Part shown: positions 43,674 to 49,387 of the stretch, piece after piece
Layout: every line of letters starts with the position of its first letter
How positions within the stretch are numbered: position 1 is the stretch's first letter
Assembly (NCBI GenBank): GCA_000999315.1
Contig: LCFW01000002.1
Coordinates: 1 to 64,000, forward strand
DNA length: 64,000 nt
Direction: 5' to 3'
DNA from: Candidatus Peregrinibacteria bacterium GW2011_GWF2_43_17
Lineage (GTDB): Bacteria > Patescibacteriota > Gracilibacteria > UBA1369 > UBA12470
The notes under the pieces: model-generated
The model's database searches: none
What the model was told of the DNA's origin: nothing
The model's input: the letters and a program-made list of their open reading frames with translations, nothing else
Made by a program: the position numbers and the translations under genes

Positions 43674-44456
43674 ATGACTTTTGATCGATCAGTCCAAGGA
43701 AAAACAGTCGAAAGTGAAGAAAGTAGAAAACCAGAATTATCCGCAGAGGAAAAACTAGCTCATGATGCGAAGGGGCTTATTGATGTTGCAAAACGCAAAT
43801 ACCATAGGGGTATAATAACCGTGGATGAAGCTTTCGGGATGCTCTCAAGAGGCGAAGACCAAAAGTTTCATACGGACAGTGCAGAGGGATTTAAATTAAA
43901 AAGAGCCATCTCTATCGAAATAAAGAACGGAACATTAGAATTCACAGAAGAACAAAAAGCATTGTTATCTACCATAAAGACTCGTTTTGAAACTCAGTCA
44001 ACTCTCCATCAAGGAATACAATGGATGGATGTGGAGTCTTCTCTTCGCGGCAATACGGAAGCTTTTGCGGCCCTTAAATATATGGAAGAAACCGGTGGCG
44101 AACCTGATGTGCTCAGGGTTGAAGGTGGCGAATTTGTTTTCACGGATACATCAGCGGAAAGCCCGTCTGGCAGAAGAAATAAATCTCATATTGATGCTAC
44201 AGGAATAATAAAACCTATTAGCGGTCTAGAACTTACAAGTGAAGATGATTACATGTATTTGCAAGGTCTGAAACCTGTCGATTCGAATTCATGGAGTTGG
44301 TTAGGGAAGCCTTCGGCAGGCAGAGATCCGCTTGCTGCCGGCGATGCGCTCGATGGTCGTCGCCGTGGTGGCTCTGTGGATGTGCATCCGGACAATGCTG
44401 ACGATCCCTATGAGCGCAGGGGTTTCCGTTGCTCGCTAAGGGTCAAAAAATCTTAA
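43674..44456 (+). CDS. DGR variable (target) protein with C-type-lectin-like C-terminus
   Basis: A 260-residue protein without signal peptide or membrane helix. Residues 1-110 are charged and helical (EEKLAHDAKGLIDVAKRKY, DEAFGMLSRGEDQKFHT). From about residue 115 the sequence follows the pattern of formylglycine-enzyme/C-type-lectin variable domains of DGR targets (GIQWMDVESSLRGNTEAFAALKYMEETGGEPDVL, then MYLQGLKPVDSNSWSWLG). The last part, residues about 220-257 (LAAGDALDGRRRGGSVDV, then ERRGFRCSLRV), is encoded by the variable repeat. GFRCSLRV matches the conserved C-terminal strand of this fold. Each variable residue maps to an adenine-containing codon in TR. It is probably a ligand-binding protein whose binding face is diversified; the absence of a signal suggests cytoplasmic action or an unrecognised export route. 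Confidence 0.9.
   Translation: MTFDRSVQGKTVESEESRKPELSAEEKLAHDAKGLIDVAKRKYHRGIITVDEAFGMLSRGEDQKFHTDSAEGFKLKRAISIEIKNGTLEFTEEQKALLSTIKTRFETQSTLHQGIQWMDVESSLRGNTEAFAALKYMEETGGEPDVLRVEGGEFVFTDTSAESPSGRRNKSHIDATGIIKPISGLELTSEDDYMYLQGLKPVDSNSWSWLGKPSAGRDPLAAGDALDGRRRGGSVDVHPDNADDPYERRGFRCSLRVKKS
44326..44444 (+). repeat. DGR variable repeat (VR)
   Basis: It aligns with TR at a constant offset of 409 bp. Eleven of the twelve AAT/AAC (Asn) codons of TR are changed in VR, giving D, D, R, R, S, D, H, D, D, Y and R. The 3' part (GGGGTTTCCGTTGCTCG) is identical to TR and is the likely initiation-of-mutagenic-homing site. Alignment breaks at the 3' end after GGGTC and at the 5' end near 44326. Confidence 0.95.
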
Positions 44457-44522
44457 ACTTTGGATCCTTGAATTTTCCTTTCTTCTTTGTTTCTTGCATT
44501 TTTTATGTAACATTTGAACCGC

Positions 44523-44558
44523 ACGGTGAATAGTCACCCCGCTATGCGGGGCTACCGT
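44523..44558 (+). other. Compact multi-hairpin element upstream of TR
   Basis: ACGGT (44523-44527) and ACCGT (44554-44558) can pair around two inner options: GGTGA/TCACC with loop ATAG, and CCCCGC/GCGGGG with loop TAT. No T-run follows, so it is not a standard terminator. The stretch 44457-44734 has no gene; this element may be part of the TR transcript or end the target mRNA. Confidence 0.5.
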
Positions 44559-44625
44559 CGAGATGTTCTTTCTCCAAAAAAACTTTGAATTCGAAAAGAA
44601 GTTTTGAAAGGACATCGGAATAATT

Positions 44626-44856
44626 TTAGACCCTTAGGTTTGAGTGGAGTTTATCTCGCTTGTCGGGATGAAAAAAGCAAACCAATGCACACTTTATGGC
44701 TGTGGCTGTAAAAGTGTTTCGGACGAACTCCATCAACAACTTGCTGCCGGAAATGCGCTCAATGGTAATCGCAATGGTGACAATGTGAATGTGAATCCGA
44801 ACAATGCTGACAATCACAATGAGAACAGGGGTTTCCGTTGCTCGATAAGGGTCTAA
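44626..44856 (+). other. Inverted repeat bracketing the TR (probable TR RNA scaffold)
   Basis: TTAGACCCTTA at 44626-44636 is the perfect 11-bp reverse complement of TAAGGGTCTAA at 44846-44856. The second arm is the 3' end of TR plus the avd stop codon. A TR transcript could fold these ends together, enclosing about 209 nt. VR ends in CTAAGGGTC and shares nine bases of the arm. Confidence 0.6.
44735..44853 (+). ncRNA. DGR template repeat (TR)
   Basis: TR is the non-coding RNA template copied by the RT; adenines are misread during cDNA synthesis. It contains twelve AAY codons in the VR reading frame, which after mutation of the first two bases can give 15 amino acids and no stop. It has an open frame back to 44644, but its own amino-acid sequence lacks the rest of the target domain. 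It must be transcribed on the plus strand to give A-to-N changes in the target. Confidence 0.93.
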
Positions 44857-45197
44857 TTGTTTTGCATGGACTTGAGCCATCCGCCCAACATTCTTCCGAT
44901 TTCAGCGGTTTCGGATTGAAGTTGGAAAATTTTTGTTTCGTTCGCAAGTTTAAGATCGAGCAAAAGTCGAAGTTTCAAAGTGATTATTTCAAGCATTGCG
45001 TTTGCTTTTATGAGATATTGAGCTTTTGCCGGTTTTGGAGCGTTTTTCGCCATAATCAAGTATTCCAATAACGATAAAATGTTTTGCTCAAGACTTGCGC
45101 CAAGCGAGAATCTCCATCTTTTTGGCAAATGAGACCAAAGATCGGTAAAATGCTTATAAAGATCATAACTCCGCGTGATGATTGATAATGATTCCAT
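44853..45197 (-). CDS. avd: DGR accessory variability determinant (Avd, four-helix bundle)
   Basis: A 114-residue, mostly helical basic protein. The C-terminal segment TAEIGRMLGGWLKS is the hallmark of bacterial Avd and 23S-intervening-sequence four-helix-bundle proteins, and the middle (FSLGASLEQNILSLLEYLIMA) fits helix two. In known DGRs, Avd forms a pentamer that binds the RT and TR RNA and is required for retrohoming. Here the gene runs opposite to the target, TR and RT: its stop (44853-44855) touches the last base of TR, and its first 20 bases overlap the RT gene head-to-head. Bordetella and most described DGRs have avd on the same strand, so this layout is unusual. Confidence 0.85.
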   Translation of the reverse strand: MESLSIITRSYDLYKHFTDLWSHLPKRWRFSLGASLEQNILSLLEYLIMAKNAPKPAKAQYLIKANAMLEIITLKLRLLLDLKLANETKIFQLQSETAEIGRMLGGWLKSMQNN

Positions 45198-46113
45198 AGA
45201 TTTGAGCTTAAGTAATATTTGGAAGTGTTGGTTTGAATATAAGAAAGGAAAGAAAATCGGTCGCGAGTTCTTAATATTCCAAGATAAGTTGGAAGCGAAT
45301 ATTCAATCGATTCATGCCGACTTGAATTTCGGAGAATATCGGCATGGAGAATACCGTACATTCACGGTACGAGATAATAAAAAGAGAGAAATTTCAGTGG
45401 CGGAGATTCGCGATCGAGTAGTCCATAGATTGGTTTATAATTATTTGGTGCCGATTTTTGATAAAACTTTTATTTATGACGCTTGGTCGTGCAGAAAAGG
45501 GAAAGGTCTTTTGGGGTCAATCGAACGAGCGCAAAGCTTCACGAATTCTTATCCGAATTGTTTTATTTGGCGAGCGGATATAAGGAAATTTTTTGACAAT
45601 GTGGATCGCGAAATTCTATTTAAACTTATTGAAAGAAAAATAAAAGATAAAAAAGCACTTCGGATTATCGGAGAAATAATCGAAAGTTATCCATGCGGGA
45701 TTTCGATAGGGAATTTAACAAGCCAGATTTTCTCAAATATATATCTGAACGAATTGGATCGTTACATAAAACATGAAATAAAACCTTTGGCATATCTGCG
45801 TTATGGCGATGATTTCATCGTTTTGAGGGAATTAAAATATGAATCAATAAACGACAAGAGCCAAATAACGGATTTTTTAAAACAGAATTTACGACTTGAT
45901 ATTCATACGGAGAACAATCAAATTTTCAAAGCGAAACACGGATTGAAATTTCTCGGATGTGTAATATATCCAAAAGGCAGAACGCTTAACGAAAGAGCAT
46001 GGAATACAATTAAGTGCAATTTGGACATGCGAAATTTATCAAGCTATCACGGACTCATGAAAAAGCACTCAAGTCGCAAAAAAATAAGACAATTCAACTG
46101 GCTTTTGTGCTAA
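45178..46113 (+). CDS. DGR reverse transcriptase
   Basis: A 311-residue RT of the DGR/group-II-like lineage. Catalytic motif RADIRKFFDNVDR (first Asp at residue 134), the DGR-specific IGNLTSQIFSNIYLNELD (residues 177-183 replace the QGxxxSP of other RTs), and YGDDFIVL (residues 209-212) are all intact. The thumb part ends with HGLKFLGCVIYPKGR. There is no maturase, endonuclease or retron-type extension. Length is typical (300-400). A GTG at 45175 is an alternative start one codon earlier. The RT copies TR RNA with adenine infidelity and the cDNA replaces VR in the target gene. Confidence 0.95.
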   Translation: MIDNDSIDLSLSNIWKCWFEYKKGKKIGREFLIFQDKLEANIQSIHADLNFGEYRHGEYRTFTVRDNKKREISVAEIRDRVVHRLVYNYLVPIFDKTFIYDAWSCRKGKGLLGSIERAQSFTNSYPNCFIWRADIRKFFDNVDREILFKLIERKIKDKKALRIIGEIIESYPCGISIGNLTSQIFSNIYLNELDRYIKHEIKPLAYLRYGDDFIVLRELKYESINDKSQITDFLKQNLRLDIHTENNQIFKAKHGLKFLGCVIYPKGRTLNERAWNTIKCNLDMRNLSSYHGLMKKHSSRKKIRQFNWLLC

Positions 46114-48741: not shown

Positions 48742-48975
48742 ATGGATAAAAAATATCTTACAACTTCAGAGGCGGCGAAATTGCTCGGCATAAGCAGAGT
48801 GGCGGTTTTTAAAAAAATAAAAAAAGGCGAAATACAGGCTATCAAAGCAGGGAGAAATTATTTGATATATAACGAAGATACAACAGGTGGGAATACGGGA
48901 AAAAACATAGAGAAATCCGTAAACAGGGTGGTTCGCGAATATGGAGAAGCCATTAAACTTCTCGGAGATGAATAA
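48742..48975 (+). CDS. HTH protein, probable antitoxin of the Doc toxin
   Basis: A 77-residue protein. Residues 1-50 form a MerR/excisionase-type DNA-binding domain (YLTTSEAAKLLGISRVAVFKKIKKGEIQAIKAGRNYLI). Residues 51-77 are a charged tail with a likely helix (NIEKSVNRVVREYGEAIKLLG). Antitoxins commonly pair a DNA-binding head with a tail that blocks the toxin, which fits here. It overlaps the Doc gene and sits behind twin palindromic operators. Phd is the classical Doc partner; this is a different type of antitoxin, and the role is inferred from context. Confidence 0.78.
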   Translation: MDKKYLTTSEAAKLLGISRVAVFKKIKKGEIQAIKAGRNYLIYNEDTTGGNTGKNIEKSVNRVVREYGEAIKLLGDE

Positions 48976-49387
48976 AAAACTTACGGTAAAAGATGTCGAA
49001 TTAATTGCTCATAAGTTAGCAAAGAAAATAATGGAATGGGACGAGCCTATCCCGGATTTTTCGACACGATTTCCGAACATACTTGAAAGCTGTCTGGCAA
49101 TTCCTTTCCAAACATTCGACAAAAAATCTCTTTATCAAGGGCTATTAGAAAAAGCATCGATTTTATTTTATTTAATGATAAAAAACCATCCTTTTCAAAA
49201 CGGGAATAAAAGAATAGCGGTAACAACTCTGTTGGTTTTTTTATCGATGAATGGGAAATGGATAAAAATTTCCAATCAGGAACTTTATAATTTCGCCATA
49301 TGGGTTGCCCAAAGCTCACCGCAATTCAAAGACGAAGTTATTCAAGCGATAAATAAGTTTCTAAAAAAATATCTCACATTGATATAG
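48968..49387 (+). CDS. Doc-type Fic-family toxin
   Basis: A 139-residue Doc/Fic protein. The Fic core motif is HPFQNGNKRIAV (near residue 76), matching the Doc form HxFxxxNKR, with the catalytic His in front. Helices before it (VELIAHKLAKKIMEW) and after it (FLSMNGKWIKISNQELYNFAIWVAQ) are as in Doc. Doc phosphorylates EF-Tu, while other Fic proteins AMPylate targets. The ATG at 48968 overlaps the antitoxin gene by eight bases; an ATG at 48941 would add nine residues. The 3' end overlaps the converging methyltransferase gene by 14 bp. Confidence 0.85.
   Translation: MNKKLTVKDVELIAHKLAKKIMEWDEPIPDFSTRFPNILESCLAIPFQTFDKKSLYQGLLEKASILFYLMIKNHPFQNGNKRIAVTTLLVFLSMNGKWIKISNQELYNFAIWVAQSSPQFKDEVIQAINKFLKKYLTLI

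Follow-up and report, generated by a model that had tools for sequence, protein, structure and literature searches.

Diversity-generating retroelements (DGRs) have been described in two settings that come closest to the element analyzed here. In the DGR of phage BPP-1 (mtd, avd, TR and brt), the gene order is avd-TR-brt (PMC12875486), while the cellular DGRs of Patescibacteria/CPR (RT clade 2; Roux et al. 2021, PMC8144416) typically have targets without recognisable domains according to the same survey (PMC8144416). The window, a stretch of 64,000 nucleotides from Candidatus Peregrinibacteria bacterium GW2011_GWF2_43_17, carries an element resembling the BPP-1 DGR in its homologous reverse transcriptase (RT), its Avd-family protein, its A-specific pair of template repeat (TR) and variable repeat (VR), its C-type-lectin target with the VR at the C-terminal end, its IMH-like element and a hairpin after the VR. 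It differs from BPP-1 in being chromosomal rather than phage-borne, in having a DUF4256 target and a structured leader 5' of the TR, and in the placement of avd, which precedes the TR in BPP-1, whereas in the window it is antisense and overlaps the RT start; since its stop abuts the TR, the RNA 3' of the TR is antisense to avd. With the Patescibacteria/CPR DGRs the element shares the host group, the chromosomal location and a target with no obvious membrane anchor, but this target matches DUF4256. Judged by similarity searches, the element is a cellular DGR of the Patescibacteria type. With a probability of roughly 0.93, we regard it as a complete, chromosomally encoded DGR whose mutated TR copy rewrites the VR of the DUF4256 target; an earlier note on this DNA had also called it complete, and every tested feature agrees (intact RT, Avd and target, A-only TR/VR differences, fold, and IMH/IMH*). 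That note did not mention that avd is antisense, that an RNA leader exists, that the target belongs to DUF4256 or that related RT genes carry repeat tracts. The DGR kind is already known, while the RNA leader, the inverted avd and the target family look new. The anatomy, seen directly in the window, is as follows.

43674..44456, + strand: target gene, 260 aa, with a helical N-terminal part and a DUF4256 domain of predicted C-type-lectin fold
44331..44444, + strand: VR, the C-terminal end of the target domain, with 19/19 differences to the TR at TR adenines
44436..44444, + strand: IMH-like VR end, CTAAGGGTC in the VR, encoding LRV; TR counterpart (IMH*) ATAAGGGTC
44537..44551, + strand: hairpin CCCCGC-TAT-GCGGGG, about 93 bp after the VR
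44740..44853, + strand: TR
44853..45197, - strand: avd, 114 aa (PF22296, E 7.6e-14, over the cut-off; phrog_3206, E 3e-19)
45178..46113, + strand: DGR reverse transcriptase, 311 aa, intact and with no repeat tract (PF00078)

The A-specific divergence of the two repeats is likewise directly visible. TR and VR had previously been placed at 44735-44853 and 44326-44444, and this alignment is indeed ungapped at an offset of 409, with 22 differences in 119 bp, all at TR adenines (10 A>G, 9 A>C and 3 A>T; hypergeometric P = 2e-14), except that its first five bases were over-included: the true repeat starts at 44331 (VR) and 44740 (TR), and the non-homologous bases before it contributed three chance "changes" to the 22. 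In the trimmed repeat, 19/19 differences fall at A (33 A in 112 bp), with P = 6e-13. Checked codon by codon, the TR has twelve AAY codons in the target reading frame, and the VR differs at eleven of them, as the earlier note had stated, and its figure of ∼10^14 possible variants is arithmetically correct (15^12 = 1.3e14). Among the nearest 19 TR/VR pairs in relatives, about 374/378 differences are at A, a figure from a scan that demanded at least 80% of differences at A. An ordinary duplication of the gene end, with its A differences due to chance or to another A-directed mutator, would account for the existence of the repeat and for nothing beyond it; with P of about 1e-13 for A-only differences, RT and Avd adjacent, and the same cassette anatomy in dozens of related loci, we regard such a duplication as extremely improbable. 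No second VR was detected across the whole 1.2 Mb genome. By analogy with BPP-1, CTAAGGGTC is taken as the putative IMH and ATAAGGGTC as IMH*. GC-rich hairpins occur 38-95 bp after the VR in about half of the relatives, and the one in the window is possibly a DGR stem-loop or a transcription terminator.

The RT frame (45178-46113) is open and contains both IGNLTSQ and YGDD, which bears out the intact catalytic motif and the DGR-specific motif reported before. The protein matches phage DGR RTs (phrog_1423, E 4e-80) and the BPP-1 bRT structure 8ub7 (E 1.6e-35); a phage origin of the element was considered and rejected, the best phage RTs being only about 37% identical. The presence of Avd, also claimed previously without mention of its minus strand, was borne out by the PF22296 and phrog_3206 matches, and the NCBI Avd model NF033474 scored 68 bits against a cut-off of 80, hence below threshold. 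The avd and RT starts overlap head to head by 20 bp, in a register identical in about a dozen relatives.

The target matches DUF4256 (PF14066) with an E-value of 2.8e-29, and the VR forms the C-terminal end of this domain, spanning the last strands of the modelled fold. An AlphaFold2 model, computed from an input alignment of 33 sequences (window and relatives), reached a mean pLDDT of 86, mostly >93 from residue 91 on. The list of 50 VIA-align entries consists almost entirely of C-type lectins, formylglycine-generating-enzyme-like proteins and DGR variable proteins, for instance TvpA 2y3c (Z 7.5, rmsd 3.1, 115 aligned) and Mtd 1yu4 (Z 7.3, rmsd 2.6, 117 aligned). Because individual scores are moderate (best Z 8.4; every Foldseek E-value at least 0.001), the assignment relies on the consistency of the match list. 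No solved structure matched the target by sequence. A structure prediction had been proposed earlier as a check on the C-type-lectin fold, and the model and the structure comparison agree as predictions, so that a C-type-lectin fold with the VR at its end is supported. Among relatives, the DUF4256 proteins with the highest scores share a near-constant C-terminus, GGALFCDRRY..VFVYHNGAESYYAARGFRGSLRV, which suggests that the scaffold may also occur in a form not varied by any DGR. One genome, G145 (e.g., locus L053), has fifteen DUF4256 matches, some as tandem domains in long open reading frames (ORFs), and no RT of this family was found in it. No paper naming DUF4256 was found among open-licence literature; for this domain of unknown function, the analysis supplies a predicted fold and, in small-genome bacteria, a part to play as the target of a DGR.

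In the chromosome, the cassette is flanked by tsaD and cca, an insertion likewise observed directly. The two genes are divergent neighbours, roughly 30-70 bp apart, in the same-family genomes G001 and G002 and also in G004 and G009; the tsaD-cca site is empty in same-family genomes, which lack this kind of RT, and the RTs most similar to that of the window (56-58% identity) come from other families of the same order. The simplest account is that the element was gained by transfer, as these comparisons suggest. On another contig of the same genome (C15, L114:5881-6318), a second DGR RT survives as a truncated N-terminal half, close to a tRNA-like sequence. Its surroundings showed neither Avd nor a TR or VR, and the fragment is a relic of another DGR. 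It was also considered as one half of a split-RT DGR, a candidate rejected on its truncation and on the lack of a tract or a TR/VR pair around it.

Between the VR and the TR, a structured segment precedes the template.

44619..44739, + strand: structured 5' leader of the TR RNA, from covariation in 18 loci and a covariance model
44626..44636, + strand: anti-IMH arm of the leader, forming the 11-bp helix H1 with 44846-44856, the TR 3' end
44646-44651/44726-44731, + strand: leader helix H2, enclosing two hairpins
44653-44658/44664-44669, + strand: leader hairpin H3
44689-44700/44705-44717, + strand: leader hairpin H4/5

Covariation of this structure is seen directly across the 18 loci, where both-sided changes occur at 29/35 pairs. 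Leader and clamp form standard pairs in 86% of cells, compared with 71% in shuffles and 35-43% with slid partners, and the covariation score of the leader alone is 0.670 versus 0.297 shuffled and no more than 0.155 slid. Because the window sequence served to draw the structure, pairing is biased in its favour over the slid versions, whereas compensatory change is not. The covariance model recovers the leader in the held-out loci L007, L008, L010, L013, L091 and L116, and weakly in L174 and L117; in L091, L116 and L117, where the TR is mapped, the match lies directly before the TR or slightly into it. No Rfam family matched the leader and, unlike covariation, its free-energy z-score of -0.53 lends no support to structure.

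How a DGR chooses IMH over IMH* is an open question, and here a compact leader segment complements the target IMH. At positions that distinguish IMH from IMH*, the arm complements the VR in 16 cases and the TR in 0 when G.U is allowed, or in 16 and 2 by exact match. These counts favour a further function, in which the arm is more than a clamp and pairs with the target IMH, helping to choose VR over TR by RNA guidance. However, several loci share one change (position -8) by common ancestry, leaving about ten independent events behind the 16 cases; moreover, H1 covaries with the TR, outside the repeat the arm follows the TR more often than the VR (48 to 27), and the LRV codons hold the VR constant, so the TR may simply be the changing copy. 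RNA guidance consequently seems doubtful to us, and the arm as a clamp on the TR 3' end is the safer reading.

The DGR reaction and the role of each part are carried over from characterised DGRs. On that analogy, the TR RNA, with its structured 5' leader clamped to the TR 3' end, would be reverse-transcribed by the RT with Avd, and template adenines would be misread by the RT. The mutated cDNA would then overwrite the 3'-terminal VR of the upstream DUF4256 gene, such that residues of the C-type-lectin-like domain would be varied while the IMH end CTAAGGGTC would stay fixed.

How cells limit a built-in mutator is likewise an open question, and relatives of the window element hint at a mutator gene switched by repeat slippage. 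Many of their RTs appear split, with the breaks at dinucleotide tracts in two loops, one before motif A (residue about 114) and one before the GISIGNLTSQ motif (residue about 163). Across 11 relative genomes totalling about 12 Mb, (AC)7+ and (CT)7+ tracts occur in DGR RT genes and nowhere else. A wider survey of an even sample of 380 Patescibacteria genomes placed 6/7 (AC)10+ tracts and 18/30 examined (GA/CT)10+ loci either inside a DGR RT or no more than about 50 bp from the RT start. The tracts outside DGRs mark candidate phase-variable genes ((GA/CT)10+; L153, L159, L161, L162, L164-L166, L168, L171, L172, L176 and L181). Several archaeal genomes also have RTs with poly-G or GA tracts at the same two loops. 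The tract-bearing loci are the following.

L011, L012, L016, L019-L022, L024, L025, L066, L091, L098, L115, L155, L157, L158, L167, L173, L174, L178-L180: dinucleotide tracts inside RT genes, mostly out of frame
L137, L138, L151, L154, L156, L160, L163, L169, L170, L175, L177: dinucleotide tracts immediately 5' of the RT start
L099, L102, L103, L104, L107, L112: archaeal DGR RT genes; homopolymers (G or C, 9-11 bases) at these two loops, where the frame is broken

A dinucleotide tract leaves the RT out of frame at about twenty loci, and in-frame tract alleles are found in L011, L115, L158 and L178, as read from one assembly per species in which assembled tract lengths may be off by one unit. 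Eight out-of-frame loci were tested, L017 with its C8 run and seven that have dinucleotide tracts. In all of them the two RT halves are stop-free, and pN/pS of about 0.11-0.35 between loci points to purifying selection on each half, which makes plain pseudogenes unlikely; a conserved two-subunit enzyme was rejected on the position of the break at a repeat tract and on the existence of the in-frame alleles. VRs beside out-of-frame RT loci differ from the TR almost only at A. From these sequence patterns, reversible phase variation looks like a better fit to the relatives' RTs than decay or a two-subunit enzyme. The upstream tracts, mostly between the RT and the divergent avd, may alter avd translation or the promoter. 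Repeat-mediated phase-variable genes (PMC11868660) are alike in having slippable tracts in frame or beside the start; here, in contrast, the switch would act on a gene for a mutator reverse transcriptase, and the window copy is tract-free. No retroelement is named in that 2025 phase-variation review (PMC11868660), and open-licence literature on phase variation, microsatellites or frameshifts in DGRs yielded no description of an RT switched by such a tract, which does not by itself prove novelty. No slippable tract was found in or beside the window RT, which is in frame. We consider it likely that the DGR lineage of the window phase-varies its mutator, with (AC)n, (CT)n, (GA)n or poly-G tracts in the two RT loops or at the avd/RT junction switching hypermutation via the frame or the start region; the window copy would be a tract-free form fixed in frame, sharing the leader whose anti-IMH arm matches the target and not the template and might guide target choice.

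Current activity of the window element, which the earlier note had proposed because no frame is broken, is plausible, as its intact frames and A-only differences fit recent firing. Alternatively, the DGR could be sequence-intact yet silent, its VR last rewritten long ago, and the single VR sequence known, the relatives that often keep the RT out of frame and the decayed second RT of the same genome would all suit such dormancy. However, the RT, avd and target frames are all open, and the VR differs from the TR at adenines only; the lack of background substitutions in 114 bp implies that little time has passed since the last rewriting. Dormancy is therefore possible but the less probable state, and recent firing remains the preferred reading. 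Elsewhere in the window (48742-49387), a small excisionase-like ORF overlaps a Fic/Doc-like ORF with HPFQNGNKR, a pair that, judged by eye, looks like a toxin-antitoxin pair.
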